Virus record (IMG/VR): IMGVR_UViG_3300048918_000089
Location: 19,944-83,943 of that record
Origin: a virus
DNA: 64,000 bases
Strand: one strand, 5' to 3'
Under the pieces are notes generated by a model that saw only the letters and a program-made list of their open reading frames with translations, searched no databases and was not told the origin of the DNA. Shown here piece after piece: positions 6,338 through 57,860 of the stretch (positions are counted from its first letter, which is position 1; each line of letters starts with the position of its first letter). Position numbers and translations under genes: made by a program.

Positions 6338-7692
6338 TAGGGCTCCATGATTCTAAGACCAGTAAGCTGCACAGGTGTGTCAGTTGAATTGGGCTGCCAG
6401 ATGCCGAATGCCTGTGCTGTCGCCTCTCCGTGTCGTGTTTCATTCACGGAGCACACAATCACACCGTTGAGCCATGCATCAATTTGCGTACCCACCGTAA
6501 TGACGCGGAGCACCGATCCATCGTGTGGTGCCACTGTCACATTACTTAGAACGCTGTCACCATTGATCGAATCGAATACATGGACACTCAGACTATAGCC
6601 TGTTGGGCTCGCCGTATCAACATGGAGACGCACTTCGATGGAGTTATTGGCATCGACATATCGAGGCGCCAAGAATGTATGGGCATCAGTGCCGCCCGTA
6701 GGTGCAATGCCCGTGGGCAATGTGGCCACAGTGACTTCCATATCTGTATCAACACGGCCCGTAACAATCTTCGCTTCAGTCAGGGGCAGCGTGATATCCT
6801 CACCCGTTGCACCTTCTGTGGTACCCATCATGGCATTACTTACATTCACAAACATGTGCCCACCCTGCTGCGCGAGTCCGAGGGATGCATCAGACCGCAC
6901 TAGCGAATCAAACAGAATCAGATTCGTCAGGTCACCCGAGCCACCCAAGAACTCCTGCAAGAAGTCGAATCTATCCGTGTACTCTGCACTGAGCGGGATA
7001 GGTGTCGTGCGGATCGTCTCGTGGAACGTATCCGATGTAACGTCACCAATCGAATCGGCGTAGATGTTCTGAATGACCTTCTTGATCCGCGCTGCATTCG
7101 CAACAGGGCCCCAGAGGTTGATCTTCATGGTGAACATGAGATCCCAGAGCATGATGGTCTTCTCGCCGAATGATCCCTCGTAGTCCTCAGAATAGGCCGT
7201 GTCATCAAGGATCAACTGCCAGTCGCGAGTGATGCCTAGCTCGGGCAGTTCCTTCATTGAGACGGAGAAATCAGGACAGAAGTACGGAAGGATCTGCTCA
7301 ACAATCTGTAGCCCGTCATCCTGATTGCGGGCCATGATCGAAAGTGAGAATCCGATATTGTACGGGGTTGACACGTACGCCGTCTGATTGCCTCGTGCAA
7401 TCTGGCGCAACTGTGTCAGCTTTCGCTCGGCGTCATATTTGACCGACGTGATTTCAAACCCCATGCGCGGCAGTGTGATTTCAACCCGCGCGCGACCCTC
7501 TGTGAGCGTCGGCGCTTCCCGGGCACGCGCGATCCATTTCTGCTTAGGCCCATACCCAATAGGAACCGCAATGGACTGCGACCGCTGATCCGTTACCGAC
7601 TCACGATACACCTGAATCGAATTGAAGATGGTTCCGAAAGCAGTGACGGCCTTCTTGAATCCTTCGTGGTAGAAGTAGATGTTCTTGAACAT
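6337..7692 (-). CDS. 15: Tail completion and sheath-stabiliser gp15 with extra C-terminal LamG-like domain
   Basis: The first 250 or so residues match T4 gp15 (272 aa), the ring that caps the sheath and joins the tail to the head: FYHEGFKKAVTAFGTIFN, IPLSAEYTDRF and a central domain with ITRDWQLILDDTAYSEDYEG. The protein is 451 residues. The extra C-terminal part of about 190 residues begins NLILFDSLVRSDASLGLAQQ and runs through a beta-rich stretch (ANNSIEVRLHVDTASPTGYS, VITVGTQIDAWLNG). That pattern is typical of concanavalin-like jelly-roll (LamG-type) domains. A related module ends the gp7-like protein at 31537-33537. Sugar or surface binding is inference. The start overlaps the gp14 stop by one base. 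Confidence 0.92.
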   Translation of the reverse strand: MFKNIYFYHEGFKKAVTAFGTIFNSIQVYRESVTDQRSQSIAVPIGYGPKQKWIARAREAPTLTEGRARVEITLPRMGFEITSVKYDAERKLTQLRQIARGNQTAYVSTPYNIGFSLSIMARNQDDGLQIVEQILPYFCPDFSVSMKELPELGITRDWQLILDDTAYSEDYEGSFGEKTIMLWDLMFTMKINLWGPVANAARIKKVIQNIYADSIGDVTSDTFHETIRTTPIPLSAEYTDRFDFLQEFLGGSGDLTNLILFDSLVRSDASLGLAQQGGHMFVNVSNAMMGTTEGATGEDITLPLTEAKIVTGRVDTDMEVTVATLPTGIAPTGGTDAHTFLAPRYVDANNSIEVRLHVDTASPTGYSLSVHVFDSINGDSVLSNVTVAPHDGSVLRVITVGTQIDAWLNGVIVCSVNETRHGEATAQAFGIWQPNSTDTPVQLTGLRIMEP

Positions 7693-11256: not shown

Positions 11257-12111
11257 TTACAAGAAGCGGATCCACTTTGACACACCATCGGATACAAATC
11301 CACCACGCGAGCCCGACCCCTGTGAGCGCAATGTTAGACCACTATTGACGCCGTCCTGCATGGTGTCTGATCCCTGTGTGGCTTGATTGAAGGTAACAGA
11401 GCCACTGACGTTGATAAAGTAAAATTGAAATCCGGCTGACACTGAATTTGCGAGCGGAAGCGTTACGCTAAAAGTAGTTCCCGGATTCCAGATTTGAATT
11501 TGCGGTGATGATGATGTGAGCGTTATCGCTGCCGATTGTCCAAATGTGCTGACTGCGGGTAGTGATCCCGCACCGGCAGAACCCGTGAAGCCGACAGAGC
11601 CCGCCGATCCTGTGAAGCCCGCGCCTGCCGAGCCGGTGAATCCTAGACCTCCCGCTGTGCCTGCTGATCCCGTGAAGCCCGCGCCTGCCGAACCGGTGAA
11701 TCCTAGACCTCCTGCAGATCCTGTGAAGCCGGTAGACCCCGCTGAGCCCGTGAAGCCCGCTGAGCCTGTGAAGCCACCTGCAGGGCCCTGCGATCCTGTG
11801 AAGCCGTTCGTACCTGCAGATCCTGTGAAGCCAGCACCACCAGATCCCGTGAAGCCTAGTGAGCCCGAGAATCCTCGCGAGCCTGTGAATCCTGCCGATC
11901 CCGTAAAGCCGCCCGCAGGGCCCTGTGATCCTGTGAAGCCGTTCGCTCCTACGGAACCAGTGAAGCCTCCTGCGGGCCCCGCAGATCCTGTGAAGCCTAC
12001 GGGGCCAATTGTAACATTGACCCAGCTTACACCGTTCCACCTAAAGACCCGACCATTCGCGGAGTACGTGTCATTGAGTGCAGGTGATGAAGGGAAATTA
12101 AGAGCCGCCAT
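11257..12111 (-). CDS. Collagen-like fibre protein 2 (paralogue of fibre 1)
   Basis: A 284-residue shorter paralogue of the neighbouring fibre protein. It has the same N-terminal cap (LNFPSSPALNDTYSANGRVF), a shorter GFTGSAG-type collagen-like region at about residues 37-185, and the same tip domain (TTFSVTLPLANSVSAGFQFY; QGSDTMQDGVNSGLTLRSQG). Its ATG at 12111 overlaps the 3' end of the large fibre gene by 14 bases in another frame. The pair looks like a tandem duplication that later differed in collagen length, which could tune fibre reach. Several internal repeat units are nearly identical at DNA level, so copy number may vary between isolates. Confidence 0.88.
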   Translation of the reverse strand: MAALNFPSSPALNDTYSANGRVFRWNGVSWVNVTIGPVGFTGSAGPAGGFTGSVGANGFTGSQGPAGGFTGSAGFTGSRGFSGSLGFTGSGGAGFTGSAGTNGFTGSQGPAGGFTGSAGFTGSAGSTGFTGSAGGLGFTGSAGAGFTGSAGTAGGLGFTGSAGAGFTGSAGSVGFTGSAGAGSLPAVSTFGQSAAITLTSSSPQIQIWNPGTTFSVTLPLANSVSAGFQFYFINVSGSVTFNQATQGSDTMQDGVNSGLTLRSQGSGSRGGFVSDGVSKWIRFL

Positions 12112-15100
12112 TTAGATTCTCCAGTTCAATGACTCGGCCTGTCAGTTCCTTGATTGCCTCAATGAGCAGGGGAACCAACTTCTCGTACCGAACAGTCAAG
12201 TATTTATCGTCAATCGGAGCCGGTACCACAACTTGTGGTAGCACAGCCTGCACTTCTTGTGCAGACACACCGACCTGTATCTTCTCATTTGTATAGCCCA
12301 ACTCGCGTGCCGTATCATTCATCTGGAAGTAGTAACCGTTCAGCGAGAGCACCTTGTGCAATGCATCGGGAATACGTCCGAGGAACTTCTTCAGACGTTC
12401 GTCTGAGTAGTACGCGGTCACTTCGTTCGTTGCACGAATTTCACCTGCTGTACCTGATGCAGCCGTTCCTACTCCGAGCGAACTGAATTGCGGAGTATTT
12501 GACGTCCCAAGATTCTGGTTGATCGTGTACGCCGTGATGTTCGCAGCATTACCCGTGATGCTGATGCCCCATGTACCCGATGCATTTGAACCGTCAGACC
12601 ATGCAACATCCTTGAATGTCGTGAACGCCGTTGACGAACCATACGCCTGTTGCCAGACGCGAAGGCCGAACGTGTCCTTGCGGAGTGTGAGCAGATTATC
12701 ACTGCCGCCCGATGAATCAGAGAATGAGCGGAACAAGAGATAGTCGGCGTATGGTGACGCGCTATCATTGTTCCATGATGTGAAACCGAAGGACATGCTC
12801 GATGCCGCAAGATCCGATGGGTGGAGCGTGCGAATATCGAAGGCCGTCATGGTCGTCGTTGACGCCGAGCCTGTATATCCTAGTCCACCCGTTGGGCCTG
12901 TCGATCCTGCTGTACCCTGCGATCCTGTGAATCCGGTGAGACCAGCAGAACCCGTGAAGCCGATCGTGCCCTGCGAGCCCACAAACCCAACGGAGCCTGT
13001 GAATCCGATAAAACCCTGAATACCCTGGGAGCCGCTGAAGCCGGTAACACCACGTGAACCTGTGAATCCCAGAGAACCCACGAAGCCTGTTACGCCCTGT
13101 GAGCCCGTGAAACCCGCACCAGCAGATCCCGTGAATCCTAGTGAGCCGGTGAAGCCCGCAGAACCCACGAACCCGACAGAGCCCGTGAAACCCGCACCAG
13201 CAGATCCCGTGAATCCTAGACCACCTGATCCTGTGAAGCCGGGAGCGCCCGCGGAGCCCGTGAAGCCAGCGCCTGCTGAACCAGTAAAGCCCAGTGATCC
13301 TGTGAATCCTGTAGTGCCTGCAGTACCTGCCGAGCCTGTGAAGCCGGCACCTGCAGATCCAGTGAATCCTAGTGAGCCCGAGAATCCTCGCGAGCCGATG
13401 AAGCCGGTCGATCCCGTGAACCCAGCAGACCCTGTGAAGCCAAGAAGACCCTGTGACCCGACGAAGCCCACTGATCCGGTGTAACCCAATGCACCCGAGT
13501 TCGCGTCAACGAACTGCGCTGTGTCACCGTCATCATACCAAATCTTCAATTGACCGTCAGTCGAGTCCCACCATAGTTGTCCTGGTAGAGGCGATGACGG
13601 TGCTGCCGTTGAGACGTTGATCGTGACAGCAGAACCCGTGAATCCCAGTGAGCCCGAAAATCCGCGCGAGCCTACAAAGCCTACGGAGCCCGTGAACCCG
13701 ACGTCACCACGCGAGCCGGTAAAGCCGACACCCTGTGAGCCAGTGAAACCGATTCCGCCCAGTGAACCCGTGAAGCCCGAGATACCCGCATTACCCTGTG
13801 AGCCTGTAAAGCCCAATGAACCCGAGAAGCCTGTTGCACCGCGTGATCCCGTGAAGCCAGCACCTGCAGATCCAGTGTAACCCAATGACCCATCATAACC
13901 CTGTGAACCTGTGTAACCCAAGGCTGCTGAGTTCGCGTCAACCCACTGGGAATGTGTTCCGTCATTGTACCAAATCTTCAACTGACCCGTAGACGAATCC
14001 CACCATAGCTGGCCATCGAACGGTGACACAGGTGCAATCGTCGTGACAATGATCGTGACTGACGAACCCGTATATCCGTATGAACCCGTATAGCCCGTTG
14101 AGCCAGTAAAGCCCGCACCGCGCGATCCCGTGAAGCCCACACCCTGCGATCCCGTGAACCCCCTTGAACCGATGGGGCCTGCGGGGCCTACTGGTCCTGC
14201 AAGACCGAATGAACCCGTGAATCCAGTGACACCCACTGATCCTGTGTAACCCAGCGATCCGGCGAATCCTGTGCCGCCGCGCGATCCTGTGAATCCCTGC
14301 GAGCCTGTATTACCGATTGAGCCTGTGAAGCCTTGCGATCCCACAAAGCCAGTTGATCCTGTGAAGCCCTGTGATCCGATATAACCTGTTGCACCACCCG
14401 ATCCCGTAAAGCCAATGACACCGCGAGAACCCGAGAATCCCAGTGCTCCTGAGTTCGCGTCAACCCACTGCGAGTGTACACCGTCATTGTACCAAATCTT
14501 CAACTGGCCTAGACCCGAATCCCACCATAGCTGACCGTCGAGAGGCAGAAGCGGTGCAGTCGTTGAGACAAGGATTGTGACAGAAGAGCCTGTGTAGCCG
14601 TATGAACCCGTGAAGCCCTGCGAGCCGACGAACCCAGTAAAGCCGCGTGAACCCACGAAGCCAATACCCTGTGAGCCGGTATAGCCGACGCCCTGTGAGC
14701 CTGTGTAGCCCATCGCTCCTGAGTTCGCGTCAACGAACTGCGATGAGGTACCGTCATTGTAGTAGACCTTTAGCTGACCCAACCCAGAGTCCCACCACAG
14801 CTGACCGTCAAGTGGTGATGACGGCGCGACTGCCGAGACAATGATCGTGACAGCAGAACCGGTGTAACCGTATGAACCCGTGAATCCGCGCGAACCGGTG
14901 AATCCGAACGAGCCCGCGAAACCGAGTCCACCGTCTGATCCTCGCGAACCCGTGAAGCCCTTTGAACCGACAAGGCCCTGAGAACCCACGAATCCAACAT
15001 CACCCTGTGAACCGGTATAGCCCAGGGCTGATGAGGACACGTCAACAAACTGAGCACTGACACCGTCATCATAGTAAATCTTCAACTGGCCGTCGGTTGA

Positions 15101-15310
15101 GTCCCACCATAGTTGACCGTCAAGAGGTTCACTCGGAGGTACTACATCGACAAAGACTGCACCTGTGATATCCAGAATTGAGTCATTCGTGTCCTTGATG
15201 AACACGCGCCCATCGGCGACGTTCAGCGCAAGCTCACCTAGCTCAAGTTCTGTAGGCAGCGGAATCTGTCCTGGGACAGAACTACGCTTGTGAAGAATAA
15301 CAGTTGCCAT
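12098..15310 (-). CDS. Large collagen-like tail fibre with C-terminal S74 (endosialidase-type) chaperone
   Basis: About 1070 residues from the ATG at 15310. This start is preferred over an upstream in-frame start because it has an AGAGAGC ribosome site and follows the late promoter. The N-terminus (MATVILHKRSSVPGQIPLPT, then ELELGELALN) resembles virion-attachment heads. The shaft alternates GFTGS collagen-like runs with five copies of a 40-residue block (SPLDGQLWWDS, GQLKIYYDDG, QFVDANSGALGYTGSQG). The C-terminus has the intramolecular chaperone fold with the Ser-Asp site YYSDERLKKFLG and SAQEVQAVLPQVV, expected to drive trimerisation and then cleave itself off. This is probably a receptor-binding or whisker fibre. 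Confidence 0.92.
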   Translation of the reverse strand: MATVILHKRSSVPGQIPLPTELELGELALNVADGRVFIKDTNDSILDITGAVFVDVVPPSEPLDGQLWWDSTDGQLKIYYDDGVSAQFVDVSSSALGYTGSQGDVGFVGSQGLVGSKGFTGSRGSDGGLGFAGSFGFTGSRGFTGSYGYTGSAVTIIVSAVAPSSPLDGQLWWDSGLGQLKVYYNDGTSSQFVDANSGAMGYTGSQGVGYTGSQGIGFVGSRGFTGFVGSQGFTGSYGYTGSSVTILVSTTAPLLPLDGQLWWDSGLGQLKIWYNDGVHSQWVDANSGALGFSGSRGVIGFTGSGGATGYIGSQGFTGSTGFVGSQGFTGSIGNTGSQGFTGSRGGTGFAGSLGYTGSVGVTGFTGSFGLAGPVGPAGPIGSRGFTGSQGVGFTGSRGAGFTGSTGYTGSYGYTGSSVTIIVTTIAPVSPFDGQLWWDSSTGQLKIWYNDGTHSQWVDANSAALGYTGSQGYDGSLGYTGSAGAGFTGSRGATGFSGSLGFTGSQGNAGISGFTGSLGGIGFTGSQGVGFTGSRGDVGFTGSVGFVGSRGFSGSLGFTGSAVTINVSTAAPSSPLPGQLWWDSTDGQLKIWYDDGDTAQFVDANSGALGYTGSVGFVGSQGLLGFTGSAGFTGSTGFIGSRGFSGSLGFTGSAGAGFTGSAGTAGTTGFTGSLGFTGSAGAGFTGSAGAPGFTGSGGLGFTGSAGAGFTGSVGFVGSAGFTGSLGFTGSAGAGFTGSQGVTGFVGSLGFTGSRGVTGFSGSQGIQGFIGFTGSVGFVGSQGTIGFTGSAGLTGFTGSQGTAGSTGPTGGLGYTGSASTTTMTAFDIRTLHPSDLAASSMSFGFTSWNNDSASPYADYLLFRSFSDSSGGSDNLLTLRKDTFGLRVWQQAYGSSTAFTTFKDVAWSDGSNASGTWGISITGNAANITAYTINQNLGTSNTPQFSSLGVGTAASGTAGEIRATNEVTAYYSDERLKKFLGRIPDALHKVLSLNGYYFQMNDTARELGYTNEKIQVGVSAQEVQAVLPQVVVPAPIDDKYLTVRYEKLVPLLIEAIKELTGRVIELENLNGGS
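12880..15000 (-). repeat. Repetitive coding tract: five LWWDS blocks separated by collagen-like GXY runs
   Basis: Within the large fibre gene the same DNA module recurs. It consists of a block encoding PLDGQLWWDS...GQLKIWYNDG...VDANSGALGYTG followed by a run of GFTGS codons. Five block copies are visible, centred near 15095, 14785, 14530, 13990 and 13550. The arrangement is suited to unequal recombination that changes fibre length. Similar GXY runs continue in the two neighbouring fibre genes down to about 10578. Confidence 0.85.
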
Positions 15311-15349
15311 CGGGTGCTCTCTATATAAGAGTGTACAGGATTTCAACGT

Positions 15350-47242: not shown

Positions 47243-47428
47243 TTAGAGTTCCTCGTAATGAGGACCCTCGTAATCATCATTATCAACGTCGAAGAATAGG
47301 TAGTCCTTGTTCTCGGACAACTCATCCTCCAGCATCTTATTTATACTACCACGATGCTTAGACGCGCGGTCTTTTGTACCTTTGGAAGAATTGCGTAGCC
47401 GCGGTTCGTCCCGTCGAAACTTGCTCAT
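47243..47428 (-). CDS. Small charged protein between gp59 and gp32
   Basis: 61 residues beginning MSKFRRDEPRLRNSSKGTKD, basic in the first half and acidic in the second (DYLFFDVDNDDYEGPHYEEL). The ATG overlaps the gp59 stop as ATGA, so it is translationally coupled to it. Unknown function; a bipolar basic/acidic layout could fit a nucleic-acid or partner-binding adaptor. A perfect TATAAATA octamer on the same strand lies inside the gene (47338-47345), which would give a late transcript for gp32. Confidence 0.75.
   Translation of the reverse strand: MSKFRRDEPRLRNSSKGTKDRASKHRGSINKMLEDELSENKDYLFFDVDNDDYEGPHYEEL
47338..47345 (-). promoter_or_regulatory. Perfect T4 late octamer TATAAATA upstream of gp32
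   Basis: The minus-strand sequence is exactly TATAAATA, about 150 bases upstream of the gp32 ATG at 47185, inside the small gene 47243-47428. It could provide late gp32 synthesis in addition to read-through from the gp33/gp59 genes. Because it is inside a coding region, it could be chance. Confidence 0.5.
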
Positions 47429-48027
47429 AGTCCTAGTTGAGTTGTTGTGATGGTCAGAAAATGCTCCCTTGGCACTCTGACAAAAGGTGAATACTTCCTA
47501 ACGAGAGAAATGACCTCTTCAATCACAGGATCGGTCACTTCAGTTTTGTCGGTGAACTGAAACAGCTTGTTAAAGATCACCAACGTTTCTAGCGATACCT
47601 GTTTCGCCAGATAGCAATGGATCAGAGGTGGATGACTTTCATCCTCTCTGACCAATCTCCAGAAACACTCAGGTGCAATGAGTTTCGGATTCCCATACTC
47701 AGAGGAGAGAAGTTCCAACTCTTGCTTGTACCTATACGTGAGCGACTCGGTACGCTTCATCCATTCCTTGTAGACGGAATCAGCTTGACCCAGTTGATAC
47801 ATACCGCCATACCGATCACCCGCTGCAAAGTTCGCAGCGAGGAGTGACACGAATTGGGGCTTGGTGTACCGGCTTGCAACTTTCGCGAACGTGAATCGTT
47901 CCTTCTTCTGCATGAAGGTGTATTCACTCGCGCGTACCGCACCCTTCGACTTCACAATATCGTACTTGGGCGACGTGAAGTGTAGGCGCATTGCGAGGTA
48001 TATCTTGTACGCCTCAAATGGCTTCAT
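47425..48027 (-). CDS. 59: Replicative helicase loader gp59
   Basis: 200 residues (T4 gp59 is 217), mostly helical. It starts MKPFEAYKIYLAMRLHFTSP, with FMQKKERFTFAKVASRYTKP and QFVSLLAANF, then AGDRYGGMYQLGQADSVYKE, all matching the family that loads gp41 helicase on gp32-coated forks. Order gp33-gp59-gp32 on one strand is the T4 arrangement. It overlaps the gp33 stop (ATGA) and the small downstream gene start (ATGA). Confidence 0.92.
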   Translation of the reverse strand: MKPFEAYKIYLAMRLHFTSPKYDIVKSKGAVRASEYTFMQKKERFTFAKVASRYTKPQFVSLLAANFAAGDRYGGMYQLGQADSVYKEWMKRTESLTYRYKQELELLSSEYGNPKLIAPECFWRLVREDESHPPLIHCYLAKQVSLETLVIFNKLFQFTDKTEVTDPVIEEVISLVRKYSPFVRVPREHFLTITTTQLGL

Positions 48028-48326
48028 TCAAATTCAAGGGTCTCGGATGTGCGCTTGAGCAGGTGAAGATTCTCGGCCTCAACCCGAATCTTGTCCTTGA
48101 GCGCGGGCGTAATCATGCCGGCGATTGTCGCGGGCTCAATGTCGCGTTCCTCGCAGAACTCCATGAGTGCTTCCATGCATCCGATCTTTCGGGTAATGGC
48201 CGTGCGCTCAATGTGCTGTGAGAACTCGATGGCACTGCGGAATTGCTTGGTGATCAAAAGCTCATCGGTAACATCTTCAGGCTGAAGATCGCCGAGTTGT
48301 TTGATCGGTGTTGCTAGGTGCATCAT
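48024..48326 (-). CDS. 33: Late transcription co-activator gp33
   Basis: 100 residues from the ATG at 48326 (AGAGAAG ribosome site). The upstream in-frame extension lies inside the lysin gene and is rejected. Recognisable are QFRSAIEFSQHIERTAI, RKIGCMEALMEFCEERDIEP and the C-terminal IRVEAENLHLLKRTSETLEF, which match gp33 of T4-like aquatic phages. gp33 links RNA polymerase to the gp45 sliding clamp for late transcription, so its presence supports the late-promoter calls. T4 gp33 is 112 residues. Confidence 0.88.
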   Translation of the reverse strand: MMHLATPIKQLGDLQPEDVTDELLITKQFRSAIEFSQHIERTAITRKIGCMEALMEFCEERDIEPATIAGMITPALKDKIRVEAENLHLLKRTSETLEFE

Positions 48327-48810
48327 GGTTGCTTCTCTGAGGGAAAGCGTAGAAAATATGCCGACCGATCTTTGCAACCCGAACCAACTCGACTTGCATC
48401 CAACGCGGCCAAACGTCCACATTGTGAAAGTACACAGCCTTCTTGATGGGTGCCAGTCTCACCGAATCAATGAGCGCGGAGCGGGCGACGTCCTCTGCTT
48501 TCGCAAAGAGAACAGGATCGCGCCGAATCCGATGCCCACATACCCATGAGAACTGGCACCCTTTCTTACCTCGCTGATACACGACACCGCAAATCGTTTT
48601 CGGAAAGTGTTTCGATTCCGTTCGATTCATGACGACTGTTGCAACTGCGAGTTTACCTGCAGCCGATTCCTCAGCCGCTTCAAAATACACCACTTCGGTC
48701 AAGCATGTCAATTCTCGTTGCGTAGCAGAATCAATCGGTGCAGCACCGCGGGGTAGTGCCAAAGACAGAACCAACATGCTTGAGGCGAACATCGACGTGA
48801 AGCCGATCAT
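48277..48810 (-). CDS. SleB-type cell wall hydrolase (probable endolysin)
   Basis: 177 residues with a hydrophobic N-terminus (MIGFTSMFASSMLVLSLALP), likely a signal peptide or signal-anchor, followed by a Hydrolase_2/SleB domain: LTEVVYFEAAEESAAGKLAV (catalytic Glu in YFEAxxE), ATVVMNRTESKHFPKTICGV, CQFSWVCG. The family cleaves peptidoglycan glycan strands. The N-terminal signal suggests export without holin help or a SAR-type endolysin. A good host-type promoter precedes it. The 3' end overlaps the first 50 bases of gp33 in another frame. Confidence 0.9.
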   Translation of the reverse strand: MIGFTSMFASSMLVLSLALPRGAAPIDSATQRELTCLTEVVYFEAAEESAAGKLAVATVVMNRTESKHFPKTICGVVYQRGKKGCQFSWVCGHRIRRDPVLFAKAEDVARSALIDSVRLAPIKKAVYFHNVDVWPRWMQVELVRVAKIGRHIFYAFPQRSNHDAPSNTDQTTRRSSA

Positions 48811-48882: not shown

Positions 48883-50412
48883 TTAGATACCCGAGCAGTC
48901 CGTGTGACAGCGTGCATCCTCGCAGCAGAACTGTCCCTTCGGGCACTGGTCGTCCGAGACACACAGAGCAGGCGTAACGACGAGGGTATCGGTCTGGTCG
49001 ATGTAGTGTTCAACCGTAACCGTTGCCAACTCAGCCGACGTTTCTGTGAATACGCCAATTCGGAAGCGCCCAAGATATGGTGCGTTGTACGCATCCTTTC
49101 CCTGCACCCACAGCGTGTAGTAGCCTGTTGGGAGATCGGTGGGTGGGGCGATAGTGAGTTCAAGCCACGTGTCATGGGCATACGGCGTGATCCACTCCCA
49201 TACCCGATTGAGCCGCTTCGGTGCAACGGCATCAGTCGTGTACACGTCACCGTAAGACCATGACACAATCGGCGCCTTCGGGGTGATACCGATTGTCACT
49301 GCGGCTCCCCGCTGAAGGGTCGCTAGTGTATCACCGATCGGCCGACCCCAGACGAGTCCGTCTGCGACAGGTGACGAGAGCAGAACATTGGGCGTTGTGC
49401 CGTAGATGGTTTCATCACGGAACAGAAGATCAACATTACCCGACTGGATGACCAATTCCTGAATCTTGTCCGCAGTCAAGCTGGGGTTATCGGTGATGAA
49501 CTGTGCGACAACGCCCGACGCGATTGCCGCCGCCGCCGATGTTCCTGCCGTTTCGATGAAGTTCTCTGTCGCCATATCAGCAACGGTCACACCCACGCCA
49601 GGCGCGGTGACGTCCACTTCAGGACCCCAGTTCGATGACTGTCCAGTGCTCCATGGGATGACACGATCAAACGCGTCCGAAGCGGCAACACCGAGCACCG
49701 AGTCAAGACCGACTGGTGAGAGTGTGTCGGCACTGACGCCCGTGTTACCCGCTGCGGCAACGACAACAAGCCCTGCCGATTCCAACTCGGCAATCTTCGC
49801 GTCAAGAATGAGGCTCTTCGGGACAGTCCATGAGCAGTTGACGACCTTGACCCCAGGTGTCTTGGCATGATCGCCCAGAATTGCGTCAAGCGCCTCGAGG
49901 AGTACTGCAACCGAAATCGTTGTCCCCATTGGAATCTTGACGACTCGGATTGTTGCGGACGGCGCGACGCCGAGTCCCCAGCCACCGATCAGTGATGCCA
50001 TCGCAGTGCCGTGACCCGAGGGGTCAGTAATGTCAAGCGATGACGGGTACAGTGGGATGACCGTACCGCGCGCGAACTCGGGGTGCCCAACATCAACACC
50101 CGAGTCAACAAGATAGACGGTCGAACCCTCGCCGTGATTCTTGGGCTTGTAGGTCTGCTTCAGTGGGAGCGACTCAGTGACGAGGCGCTGAAGGTGCCAT
50201 GTCGAGACTTGCGGTGTGACCTCAAGCGTGACCTCTTCCTCAGCAAGCACGACGCCGGGAATCGCGAGAATGTCAGCCACTGGCTTGGTCGTCTCAAGCA
50301 CCACAAACCGCGCGTTGCTCAGGGTCTGCTTGATTTTGCCAATCGCACGAAACGCCTTGGACAACTTCAGAATGTCCGCAGTCGGCGAGTAGAGAATATG
50401 GAACGTTGTCAT
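48883..50412 (-). CDS. Subtilisin-like serine protease with inhibitor-type prodomain
   Basis: 509 residues from the ATG at 50412 (AGGACT ribosome site); the in-frame extension upstream lies before the promoter and is rejected. Residues about 1-75 resemble a peptidase inhibitor I9 prodomain (MTTFHILYSPTADI; NARFVVLETTKPVADI). The S8 triad is visible: YLVDSGVDVGHPEF (Asp), DPSGHGTAMASLIGG (His) and ETAGTSAAAAIASGVVAQF (Ser), with the oxyanion Asn region VVVAAAGNTG. The last 100 residues form a jelly-roll-like P domain and a Cys-rich tail (CVSDDQCPKGQFCCEDARC). No signal peptide is seen. Subtilases are rare in T4-like genomes; a late promoter points to a virion, maturation or lysis-time role. 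Confidence 0.92.
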   Translation of the reverse strand: MTTFHILYSPTADILKLSKAFRAIGKIKQTLSNARFVVLETTKPVADILAIPGVVLAEEEVTLEVTPQVSTWHLQRLVTESLPLKQTYKPKNHGEGSTVYLVDSGVDVGHPEFARGTVIPLYPSSLDITDPSGHGTAMASLIGGWGLGVAPSATIRVVKIPMGTTISVAVLLEALDAILGDHAKTPGVKVVNCSWTVPKSLILDAKIAELESAGLVVVAAAGNTGVSADTLSPVGLDSVLGVAASDAFDRVIPWSTGQSSNWGPEVDVTAPGVGVTVADMATENFIETAGTSAAAAIASGVVAQFITDNPSLTADKIQELVIQSGNVDLLFRDETIYGTTPNVLLSSPVADGLVWGRPIGDTLATLQRGAAVTIGITPKAPIVSWSYGDVYTTDAVAPKRLNRVWEWITPYAHDTWLELTIAPPTDLPTGYYTLWVQGKDAYNAPYLGRFRIGVFTETSAELATVTVEHYIDQTDTLVVTPALCVSDDQCPKGQFCCEDARCHTDCSGI

Positions 50413-50438
50413 TGAGAGTCCTAAAAGGGGTTTGCTGA

Positions 50439-50446
50439 TATTTATG
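50439..50446 (-). promoter_or_regulatory. Late promoter-like octamer CATAAATA before the protease gene
   Basis: Minus-strand CATAAATA lies 27 bases before the protease ATG at 50412 and overlaps the end of the QueC-like gene. The distance to the start is the same as for several other late genes in this window, which supports the 50412 start. Confidence 0.6.
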
Positions 50447-50990
50447 CTAGATCGGGATCCGGAATCCCTACAACTTGTGTGCTCCATGCGCGCTCCCTAC
50501 AGAAGAAGCAGGTCCCGCAGCGTCCCGGGGTCTTTGATCCACAAGATCGTGTCAGAGAGAGCAGGGGAAGGAGCCCCAGGCGCTGGTATTCCGCTATGAT
50601 CGCGGCCTTGTCGAGGGTCATGAAGGGCCGAAAGTGTAGAGCGTTCGCGGGGTCGCCTCGCATCGGGACGAATCCCGCGTCCAAATCGACGGGCGGATTG
50701 AGCGTGCATCCCGTATAAACAACCCCATATGAAACGGATTGGACGAGTTCGACGGCGCGCCGAATCAGCATCGGCTGTGACTTGCCCCATGATCGAACGG
50801 TGAGCGTCGTCCCGAGAAGGGTGTTGATCGCATCGACAGTTACCTTCGCATGATGCGCGGTGTTTGCCCATGTGGAGATGACATGGACCTGAACGTCTGG
50901 GTTCTCTCGTGCAAGGAGATAGACCAAGAGCGTTGAGTCAGCCCCGCCCGACGTGAGGACGTGGACGGGAAGCTTGGGAATGACGATCAT
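50442..50990 (-). CDS. QueC-like PP-loop ATPase (7-deazaguanine synthesis type)
   Basis: 182 residues. An N-terminal PP-loop VLTSGGADSTLLVYLLAR and a C-terminal zinc cluster SCGSKTPGRCGTCFFCRER, followed by VVGIPDPDL, match the architecture of QueC, which makes preQ0. Bacterial QueC is usually about 220-230 residues, so this is short, with a reduced middle. Phage QueC can feed 7-deazaguanine DNA modification or host tRNA queuosine. No other pathway gene (folE, queD, queE) is visible here, so the partner enzymes must lie elsewhere or come from the host. The enzyme class is confident, the exact product less so. Confidence 0.8.
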   Translation of the reverse strand: MIVIPKLPVHVLTSGGADSTLLVYLLARENPDVQVHVISTWANTAHHAKVTVDAINTLLGTTLTVRSWGKSQPMLIRRAVELVQSVSYGVVYTGCTLNPPVDLDAGFVPMRGDPANALHFRPFMTLDKAAIIAEYQRLGLLPLLSLTRSCGSKTPGRCGTCFFCRERAWSTQVVGIPDPDLA

Positions 50991-51009
50991 ACCGATATGT
51001 ATATGGCAA

Positions 51010-51312
51010 TACCCAGACCGAAGCCTGAGTATTGGAACTGTTTCTGTTGCTAGGCTTGTTCAAGCCCCGCCATGCTTACGCAGCGATGGCAAATGCAGAA
51101 GTGTCCATTGCATTTAGATTTTCTGCTTTTACGGCAGTCAGCTACCGAATGGCGTCTTATTCTTTACTTTACACTCAGTCGAAACCGATCGCCCCCGAAG
51201 GTACTGTTTGCTTCGGTGTTTCTAGTGGAGGCGCGGGGAATTGAACCCCGGTCCTAAATGTGGTTCGGACAAGCATGACCATCATTTCCAACAACTACAC
51301 GCAACCCTGTCA
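51010..51312 (-). ncRNA. ssrA: Circularly permuted (two-piece) tmRNA
   Basis: Read on the minus strand, the acceptor piece comes first: a T-arm CGGGG-TTCAATT-CCCCG (51250-51234), then acceptor 3' strand CGCCTCC (51233-51227) and A73 (51226). A 29-base spacer with a CCGAAG/CTTCGG hairpin follows. Then comes the coding piece: acceptor 5' strand GGGGGCG (51196-51190), the D-region ATCGGTTTCGACTG, and the tag frame from GCA (51126) to TAA (51078-51076), encoding AENLNAMDTSAFAIAA. The acceptor strands pair over seven base pairs including G3-U70, the alanine identity pair. A hairpin GGCTT-GAAC-AAGCC follows the tag stop. tmRNA rescues stalled ribosomes with SmpB. Ends are approximate. The last bases after A73 are CTA, so CCA would be added after processing. 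Confidence 0.93.
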
Positions 51313-51316
51313 GTTC

Positions 51317-51324
51317 TATTTATG
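51317..51324 (-). promoter_or_regulatory. Late promoter-like octamer CATAAATA before the tmRNA
   Basis: Minus-strand CATAAATA overlaps the stop of 51320-51772 and lies about 65 bases before the T-arm of the tmRNA. It would start the tmRNA precursor near 51310. This is the basis for the approximate 5' end given for the tmRNA. Confidence 0.6.
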
Positions 51325-51772
51325 ATCCCTCGTACTTCTTGCAACCGTGCACGCAGGGTGCATCGCCTACCCAGCACGTTCCAGTTGACCAATGCTTCCC
51401 CTTCGGATGACCACATGTCTTGCACGGACCCTTCAGTTCGCCCCTGACGAGCATTTTGAGCAGGTCCTCGGTTAGCAACGACTCGGAATAACGAAGCACA
51501 CGATCCGTTTCCGTCAGCGTTACTTCCTTCGCTTCGGCTCGGTCGTACATATCACCTTGGATAGAAACGACCCGCATGGTGACGTTCGTCACCTCGCTCT
51601 TCCAACGTCCTTCGGCCTCGTAAATCTTGAGCACCATGCCGACAGCAGTCTTAGATGCGCGACCGATTGCGTTCGCGTAGACGATGGTGTCACCTGGCTT
51701 GATAACGTTCCCCATTCGATCAACGAATGAGTCAACCTCAGTGCGTGGATCCTTCGTGCCCTTGAGTGCCAT
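51320..51772 (-). CDS. KOW-like protein with C-terminal zinc ribbon
   Basis: 150 residues. The N-terminal half (DRMGNVIKPGDTIVYANAIG, then TAVGMVLKIYEA) resembles small SH3/KOW-type beta barrels and closely parallels the N-terminus of the protein at 55740-56351 (GNTIKQGDYVIYGGAKGGTR). The C-terminal 40 residues hold CKTCGHPKGKHWSTGTCW and PCVHGCKKY, a probable zinc site. A nucleic-acid or protein adaptor role is inference. Its start overlaps the upstream stop by one base. Confidence 0.75.
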   Translation of the reverse strand: MALKGTKDPRTEVDSFVDRMGNVIKPGDTIVYANAIGRASKTAVGMVLKIYEAEGRWKSEVTNVTMRVVSIQGDMYDRAEAKEVTLTETDRVLRYSESLLTEDLLKMLVRGELKGPCKTCGHPKGKHWSTGTCWVGDAPCVHGCKKYEGS

Positions 51773-56590: not shown

Positions 56591-56753
56591 AGAGTTCCCT
56601 CGCTTCATCAAAGTTGGCGAGGTTCAGAACATGCGCACATTCCTCGCAATAGTGCTTCCGTGTGGACTTGTTGAACCACGTTGCATCCGGTGCTCGGCAC
56701 GCTGTCCGATTGCAGAGACCGTGCAGTGTTCCGATTTCAGGCTGCGGCGTCAT
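56445..56753 (-). CDS. Phage zinc-finger protein with STRxHYC motif
   Basis: 102 residues from the ATG at 56753, which has a GAGGAGC ribosome site; the start at 56774 lacks one. The core LCNRTACRAPDATWFNKSTR then KHYCEECAHVLN resembles a widespread small phage protein with a C-x4-C...STRxYYCxxCAxxIN zinc motif. The C-terminal 40 residues are Arg/Ser-rich. Unknown function, possibly nucleic-acid binding. Overlaps the upstream nuclease gene by 17 bases. Confidence 0.72.
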   Translation of the reverse strand: MTPQPEIGTLHGLCNRTACRAPDATWFNKSTRKHYCEECAHVLNLANFDEARELYGNFLCENAAPSVADVDSAAPEGTQGVAEHDSTPRRKVRSRRRKASEG

Positions 56754-57408
56754 AGTGCTCCTCGAAGAAGTCACGGGCTTTCAGTAGTCCTTTCACCCAT
56801 GGGTTACGCTTCTCAATGAAAATCTGCGGCGCTTCGTTCTCAACGGTGATGATGACGACTGACCGATTGATCGGCTGACCTGTCAACTCCTCCCACATGA
56901 TTGCGTACGCCGCGCATTGCATGAAGTAATTCTCAATCCATTCGGGCTTCTTGATGGAGTTCGAGGTCTTGAAGTCAATGATGGACAGCACTCCGTCGAA
57001 CTCCGCCACGCAATCGACGCGCCCCGCAAGTCGCAGGTAATGTGAATAGAGACCTGCTTCCTGCATCCTGATGTTGTTGATCCTTGATAGGATCGGCACC
57101 ATTTGCTTGAACATGATGTTGTCAAGCAACGACGACCTCGGGATGCGAACCAACTCGTTGTTCAGATGCATTTCGATCATCGAATGGACCTTCGTGCCGC
57201 GCACTGCCGCCTGTCGTCCGATCTTCAGTGCTTCGTCATACCCCACTCGCTCGCGCCACTGGTCGAGCCCAGCCTTGGACTGATATCCGAGCACCGTTGT
57301 GACTGACGGATACTTGCGCCCGTCGGGGGTCTTGTAGAAACGAACACCAGACGCTTGCGTCTCCGCTTCGATCTGGGCAATTTCAGGCGGCGGGATGTGA
57401 ATGAACAC
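56737..57408 (-). CDS. RecB-like PD-(D/E)XK nuclease
   Basis: 223 residues from a GTG at 57408 that overlaps the upstream stop as TAGTG. The catalytic core is visible: RGTKVHSMIEMHLNNE (conserved His/Glu region), GRVDCVAEFDGVLSIIDFKT (the D-x(n)-D/ExK motif) and YFMQCAAYAIMWEELTG (QxxxY motif). This is the Cas4/RecB-type family common in T4-like aquatic phages, where it probably trims DNA ends in recombination or degrades host DNA. The TPDGRKYPSVTTVLG start is typical of phage members. Confidence 0.85.
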   Translation of the reverse strand: MFIHIPPPEIAQIEAETQASGVRFYKTPDGRKYPSVTTVLGYQSKAGLDQWRERVGYDEALKIGRQAAVRGTKVHSMIEMHLNNELVRIPRSSLLDNIMFKQMVPILSRINNIRMQEAGLYSHYLRLAGRVDCVAEFDGVLSIIDFKTSNSIKKPEWIENYFMQCAAYAIMWEELTGQPINRSVVIITVENEAPQIFIEKRNPWVKGLLKARDFFEEHYDAAA

Positions 57409-57860
57409 TAGTGGGTCTGCTCGCCATTGATGACACAATCCATGCAATCGCATGTCCGCCAACCTTCGGGGAGATAGCAGTTCTCTGGCGCATTCGCGAA
57501 CATCGGAGCAATGTCATCGTCAGTGAAGCCCGCGAGACCGCAACCAACGCGCGTCACGATGAAGGACAGTTCGGGATGATTCTTGGCGAACACCAATAGT
57601 TCATCGACGTACACCTTAACGTCACCCTTTGCCAATTGCACACCTGGCGTAGAGACGGTTGGGAGCGCATAGCTTCGACCATAGAGACCGACACCGCGAC
57701 CGAACACAGCACCATACTGCTCGCGCGCAACTCGCGCAGCGCCCGCACCATGAATGCCTAGCTCGTTAGAGCCGAATACGAAGATCGTATTCGGCTCTTG
57801 CATCTGAAGTTCGACGCGACGAATGTCGGTTTTGATTTCTTTGATGCCGTATTGGATCAT
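57408..57860 (-). CDS. A1S_2505-type phage non-structural protein (macro-like fold)
   Basis: 150 residues. The block IFVFGSNELGIHGAGAARVA then YGAVFGRGVGLYGRSYALPT and SFIVTRVGCGLAGFTDDDIA followed by PMFANAPENCYLPEGW is highly characteristic of a conserved phage family sometimes called A1S_2505. The HGAG and GCGLAG loops suggest an ADP-ribose or macro-type binding pocket, but function has not been established to my knowledge. A short C-terminal CDCMDC extension may bind metal. ATGA overlap with 57857-58117. Confidence 0.85.
   Translation of the reverse strand: MIQYGIKEIKTDIRRVELQMQEPNTIFVFGSNELGIHGAGAARVAREQYGAVFGRGVGLYGRSYALPTVSTPGVQLAKGDVKVYVDELLVFAKNHPELSFIVTRVGCGLAGFTDDDIAPMFANAPENCYLPEGWRTCDCMDCVINGEQTH

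Follow-up and report, generated by a model that had tools for sequence, protein, structure and literature searches.

A circularly permuted tmRNA gene with a conserved late promoter box in an uncultured lineage of T4-like phages

In bacteria, ribosomes that have become stuck are rescued by tmRNA. A sequence-only reading of IMG/VR record IMGVR_UViG_3300048918_000089, an 84-kb linear viral contig, had placed a permuted tmRNA beside a QueC-like gene. This locus raises the question of whether the phage possesses a tmRNA gene of its own, and when and how such a gene would act. We analyzed a stretch of 64,000 nucleotides of this record, referred to here as the window; positions are those of the window unless another locus is named.

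The tmRNA gene of the window is complete and circularly permuted, and it occupies about 51311-50985 of the minus strand. On this strand, ARAGORN called a tmRNA* at 50985-51315. The Rfam model tmRNA_permuted (RF04321) matched 51283-51076 over its full length (1-213) with 106.9 bits (E 7.5e-20), and beta_tmRNA (RF01850) matched 51327-51007 with 89.6 bits; both scores exceed the gathering cut-offs, which are 47 and 84 bits, respectively. The tmRNA core pattern gave a single match in the window and no match in 100 shuffles. The T-arm and the acceptor 3′ strand precede the acceptor 5′ strand with a spacer between them, which confirms the permuted order. Thus, the permuted minus-strand tmRNA of the sequence-only reading is recovered both by ARAGORN and by two covariance models. 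The parts of the gene are as follows.

51324-51317, minus strand: T4-type late promoter-like box CATAAATA (conservation in relatives, enrichment in the window)
51226-51311, minus strand: first-transcribed piece, with the 5′ strand of the P2 helices, T-arm, acceptor 3′ strand and A73 (sequence, Rfam alignment, covariation)
51250-51234, minus strand: T-arm
51233-51227, minus strand: acceptor 3′ strand CGCCUCC
51226, minus strand: discriminator A73
51225-51197, minus strand: 29-nt intervening spacer with a hairpin, which tRNA-processing enzymes are expected to excise (sequence, fold)
51112-51196, minus strand: start of the second piece up to the resume codon, with the acceptor 5′ strand, linker, D-region, 3′ strands of P2 and hairpin region (Rfam alignment, relatives, covariation)
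51196-51190, minus strand: acceptor 5′ strand GGGGGCG
51111-51076, minus strand: tag frame GCA AUG GAC ACU UCU GCA UUU GCC AUC GCU GCG UAA, AMDTSAFAIAA and stop, 11 residues (resume-codon column, RF04321 alignment)
50991-51075, minus strand: 3′ domain, in which the CAACAGAA motif is conserved and a pseudoknot/terminal hairpin is predicted (RF01850 match to 51007, invariant columns)

The acceptor helix GGGGGCG/CGCCUCC consists of seven base pairs with G3-U70 and is followed by A73, as had been claimed. G3-U70 and A73 are the alanine identity elements. The bases encoded after A73 are CUA, not CCA; therefore, CCA has to be added by the host. The spacer is likewise 29 nt long and hairpin-forming, as first described. 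In folding, its hairpin (CCGAAG...CUUCGG, -6.9 kcal/mol) borrows the first two acceptor Gs, and the length and sequence of the spacer vary among relatives. In the second piece, the acceptor 5′ strand is followed by the 3-nt linker AUC and then by the D-region GGUUUCGAC. Directly after the 3′ domain, the QueC-like PP-loop gene begins at 50990, its start codon abutting the 3′ end of the tmRNA.

Conservation of the structure was analyzed in 22 distinct sequences, using the helices of the Rfam families (five helices of the tRNA-like domain and P2). In these, 98.5% of the helix cells were paired. The acceptor and T-stem were 100% paired, and G3-U70 was invariant in the 22 sequences. Double compensatory changes were detected at 14 of the 28 paired positions, and 54 double-change cells were observed against a mean of 14.7 after shuffling and 0-8 with the partners slid; as the structure was derived in part from the same alignment and the rows are related, these covariation figures overstate independence. 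Two positions of the acceptor helix are compensatory, with G-C to A-U and U-A to C-G exchanges that span both pieces.

To read the tag frame, the window was aligned with 21 relatives. ARAGORN called a tag in 20 of these, and in every one the resume codon falls in column 224 of the 22-row alignment. The window codon in this column is GCA at 51111; the RF04321 consensus UAAaUGC aligns with the same GCA. As judged from this alignment, the window tag is most likely AMDTSAFAIAA. The sequence-only reading had begun a 16-residue tag, AENLNAMDTSAFAIAA (AENLN...), at GCA 51126, and ARAGORN picks the same start. This GCA sits inside a conserved CUGC/GCAG helix, and the longer tag was rejected on the strength of the alignment with the relatives. 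By this comparison, the stop codon and the hydrophobic-Ala-Ala end had been read correctly, and the N-terminus had most likely been misread. The tags of the lineage (GTYNTPLALAA, DNNYMSFATSYALAA and AMDTSAFAIAA) are unlike the bacterial permuted tags compared (ANDN..., ANDE...). They differ among relatives in length and sequence, and the ALAA/AIAA ending is retained via varied codons. Some such genes are missed or misread by ARAGORN or annotators, as seen for the tag start in the window, for loci L030 and L042, and for cyanophage copies lying under hypothetical proteins.

The promoter box CATAAATA shares bases with the stop codon of the preceding ORF, and the predicted transcription start is the G at 51311. 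In T4, late promoters are TATA boxes of 8 bp that precede the start by about one turn, and substitution at -13 is common (PMC2988020). As in T4 late genes, a TATAAATA-type box with a variable first base lies about one helical turn 5′ of the predicted RNA start. Its ATAAATA is invariant in all 23 distinct tmRNA copies. In 22 copies it stands at one of two neighbouring distances, and in the window copy it is 17-18 bases further off. The flanks drift: among the 23 distinct copies, mean identity in the 20 bases upstream is about 0.45, and downstream there are five variable bases before the invariant G that opens the conserved RNA. The window has 12 ATAAATA sites where 1.78 would be expected (6.7x). 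Eleven of these sites are on the minus strand, which encodes most of the window genes. The box was found in none of the 35 bacterial permuted tmRNA genes examined. The late-type promoter of the sequence-only reading is upheld by the invariant ATAAATA in 23/23 copies and by the enrichment in the window. Its proposal that the tmRNA works late in infection is well supported by promoter conservation, and transcription late in infection is predicted from the sequence with good support. The ATAAATA boxes (e.g., 3745, 19475, 35842, 41573, 50439 and 59877) lie mostly directly 5′ of minus-strand ORFs, and the 12 sites provide a usable map of late transcription units.

The neighbours that matter for the position of the gene are given below.

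50442-50990, minus strand: PP-loop ATPase, QueC-like (PF06508 29 bits, phrog_1550, synteny)
48883-50487, minus strand: subtilase-family (S8) protease, conserved neighbour (PF00082 103.8 bits)
48024-48422, minus strand: gp33-like late-transcription coactivator, conserved neighbour (PF16805 64.9 bits)
47425-48027, minus strand: gp59-like helicase loader, conserved neighbour (PF08993 38 bits)
56737-57462, minus strand: phage exonuclease, flanking the conserved slot on its opposite side (phrog_298 234 bits, synteny)

Other T4-type genes around the tmRNA encode PhoH, a cell-wall hydrolase, gp32, baseplate hub and wedge, tail tube and baseplate proteins. Since gp33, gp59, gp32, PhoH and baseplate genes of T4-like type surround it, the gene is phage-borne, in agreement with the sequence-only reading. 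Only the C-terminal zinc-motif part of the PP-loop protein resembles QueC (20.6 bits against an equivalog cut-off of 150.3 bits). The subtilase had no match over most of its length among phage isolate records and is conserved in the uncultured lineage. No SmpB was found in the 84 kb of the viral record, itself perhaps incomplete; host SmpB would therefore be needed. At 12098-15346, the window encodes a probable tail fibre of 1082 aa, which has collagen repeats and, at its C-terminus, a chaperone domain of the endosialidase type.

With the subtilase as query, 36 viral loci were found, and many of them carry a permuted tmRNA directly 5′ of the PP-loop gene. The block order of the lineage is PhoH, exonuclease, tmRNA, PP-loop, subtilase, hydrolase, gp33, gp59 and gp32, in which the PP-loop and subtilase genes are an optional part. 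The order is the same in the window, but four extra ORFs separate the exonuclease from the tmRNA. It is also found in viral contigs whose proteins are 35-75% identical, and most viral matches with a 3-nt linker and no CCA have it. DNA searches for close relatives among phage isolates returned nothing useful, nor did searches with gp59 and the Ig-protein.

A scan for the 3-nt-linker pattern found 60 viral stretches in IMG/VR against 5 of 84,980 bacterial and archaeal species, counts that are indicative only because the pattern was exact, the 4-nt form was counted differently and the collections differ. The five cellular genomes are all Roseateles, Variovorax or Caldimonas, and all encode CCA. 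The 3-nt linker was rejected as a marker of the lineage alone, since it also occurs in CCA-encoding viral genes and in these five Burkholderiales-type genomes. Absence of CCA was rejected in the same role, since cyanophage tmRNAs lack it too. At two loci, L102 and L126, a CCA-less tmRNA lies in a different gene setting, and several 3-nt forms encode CCA.

Some contigs with the PP-loop and subtilase genes have no tmRNA and another gene in its place, and in one such 80-kb record no RF04321 match was detected anywhere. Thus, the tmRNA is dispensable. In L027, L035, L046 and L056, a nicotinamide-nucleotide adenylyltransferase-like sequence (GRFQPFHDGH motif) near 7000-7440 occupies the usual place of the tmRNA directly 5′ of the PP-loop gene. 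We also considered a functional link between the PP-loop (QueC-like) gene and the tmRNA. This was not supported, as the PP-loop gene stays by the subtilase without the tmRNA, and the tmRNA persists without both. In L117 (1690-2014), an intrinsic-terminator-like hairpin (CCCCCGCAAGGGGGTTTT) lies directly 3′ of the tmRNA; this suggests that the tmRNA may be a single-gene transcript there.

In the tree, the window tmRNA lies outside the alphaproteobacterial and cyanophage clades. It stands beside its syntenic relatives without support (38/42) and on a long branch; therefore, the case for its kinship with them is made by gene order, linker length, the 3′ end and the promoter. The tree points to no donor, the RNA being short and the window branch long. 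The best clade-specific Rfam model is the beta model, yet its 89.6 bits compare with 298 bits for a genuine beta-type gene (L022), and in L131, of the same lineage, the alpha model scores best. The permuted form had been taken as a hint at the host group. This hint is weak: the tree keeps the window tmRNA out of the alphaproteobacterial and cyanophage clades alike, and the beta model is best but low-scoring. No psbA-family match was found in nine records of the lineage, which leaves a cyanobacterial host unsettled.

From the gene, structure, covariation, promoter conservation, synteny and tag frame observed above, we consider it probable that the locus is a functional permuted phage ssrA, held in a fixed slot of an uncultured T4-like lineage, made late and used for ordinary trans-translation with host factors. 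Its transcription, processing, charging, SmpB use, proteolysis and benefit are proposed here by analogy with known tmRNA biology. An RNA polymerase directed by phage gp55, gp33 and the clamp would transcribe ssrA late from the ATAAATA box. Host tRNA-processing enzymes would excise the spacer, giving two RNAs joined by the acceptor and P2 helices, and the host CCA-adding enzyme would finish the 3′ end. Host AlaRS could then charge the tmRNA via G3-U70. Together with host SmpB, the tmRNA would enter ribosomes stalled on broken mRNA and append AMDTSAFAIAA, and the product would be removed by host Clp-type proteases. The likely benefit is that ribosomes remain available during the cutting of host and phage mRNAs. 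Early use for recycling host proteins has been proposed by one paper as the role of lytic-phage tmRNA. The late promoter at a near-fixed distance in 23 copies points to ribosome rescue during assembly and lysis, a timing that is testable.

Other readings of the gene were weighed against ordinary trans-translation. The altered tag might have a phage-specific job, re-routing products to another protease, protecting them, or countering a defence that cuts mRNA or tRNA. The lineage tags, unlike the bacterial permuted tags compared, and the apparent late, phage-controlled expression would fit such a job, but all tags end in hydrophobic-Ala-Ala, an ordinary degradation signal, and we regard this reading as unlikely. 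The RNA might also be a mimic that inhibits host trans-translation by titrating SmpB or the ribosome, with no completed tagging. A precedent has been proposed for the gene of mycobacteriophage DS6A, which has a tRNA-like domain only. In the related contigs L042 (7254-7410) and L128 (3284-3520), the late promoter and tRNA-like domain are kept, and the tag end and 3′ domain are missing through deletions that have one breakpoint in common; these truncated genes are either a natural inhibitory form or an assembly artefact. Nearly all members, however, and the window among them, retain the conserved 3′ domain and an open tag frame that closes with ALAA/AIAA and a stop codon. In contrast to the DS6A type, which has no tag frame, the window has one and its ending is conserved. 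Inhibition is therefore very unlikely as the function of the window gene.

Capture of a host ssrA, as a functionless relic left by transduction or by insertion of a phage into the host gene, has in its favour that ssrA is often a bacteriophage attachment site (PMC9004378) and that the gene is absent from some relatives. Against this stand the whole gene, its compensatory changes, and its fixed slot and own late promoter in divergent phages; moreover, the best bacterial matches are distant. A relic is highly improbable. Returning to a functional phage ssrA, we tentatively suggest, as a possibility short of an even chance, that it is a long-resident late gene refitted for the virus, with a late promoter positioned to start the RNA at its first conserved base, its own tags and CCA left to the host, and that the gp33-side slot has carried different tmRNA types in different phage lineages, as if selection renews a host-matched rescue gene.

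Finally, the gene was compared with known tmRNAs. Among 133 unique phage tmRNA structures, 53 were two-piece, and 50 of those 53 were aquatic (PMC9004378). A tmRNA database holds 79 phage tmRNAs of all forms, and RF04321 was built there (PMC11915505). Judged by its sequence, the window tmRNA is real and functional-looking, and belongs to this known class of phage two-piece tmRNAs. The sequence-only reading had held the permuted form to be undescribed in a T4-like phage. This is contradicted by the published two-piece tmRNA of the T4-like phage Melnitz, directly upstream of gp33 (PMC9004378), and by the records of HTVC008M and cyanophages, which carry one as well; a claim to the first two-piece tmRNA in a T4-like phage falls on the same literature and records.

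Methylophilales phage Melnitz (MZ577097) and Pelagibacter phage HTVC008M (KC465899) are T4-like and carry a permuted tmRNA in the same slot, with the order PhoH, exonuclease, tmRNA, gp33 and gp59. In Melnitz, TATAAATA also lies just 5′ of the tmRNA; its authors inferred an early promoter and predicted a glutamine riboswitch (PMC9004378). The alpha model is best for the HTVC008M tmRNA and the Melnitz tmRNA groups with alphaproteobacterial tmRNAs, whereas the window tmRNA does neither. Unlike the window tmRNA, both encode CCA and have long spacers and divergent T-loops. This shared slot with differing tmRNA types reflects either replacement in place or deep divergence. Its occurrence in Pelagibacter, Methylophilales and uncultured phages suggests a stable selected function, not chance capture.

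Unannotated permuted tmRNAs of cyanobacterial type were found at L170:3942-4256, L171:3941-4292, L172:3943-4260 and L173:3946-4265. These loci are from cyanophages S-CAM1, S-SSM7 and S-CBWM1 and marine virus AG-345-P14, which are T4-like (Kyanoviridae) or related phages; the S-CAM1 and S-SSM7 tmRNAs are hidden under "hypothetical protein" CDSs. Like the window tmRNA, all four are permuted, do not encode CCA and have nearly the same T-arm and acceptor strand. They differ from it in their tags (ANNIVAFSR...), 4-nt linker, place in the genome and separate clade, and in three of the four the spacer is very short. With the betaproteobacterial two-piece tmRNA (RF01850), the window tmRNA shares the TTC T-loop and the order of parts, but it has a 3-nt instead of a 4-nt linker, no CC(A) and a late promoter. 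What is new relative to these systems is a lineage that keeps its tmRNA in one block, with compensatory changes and an invariant late promoter box.
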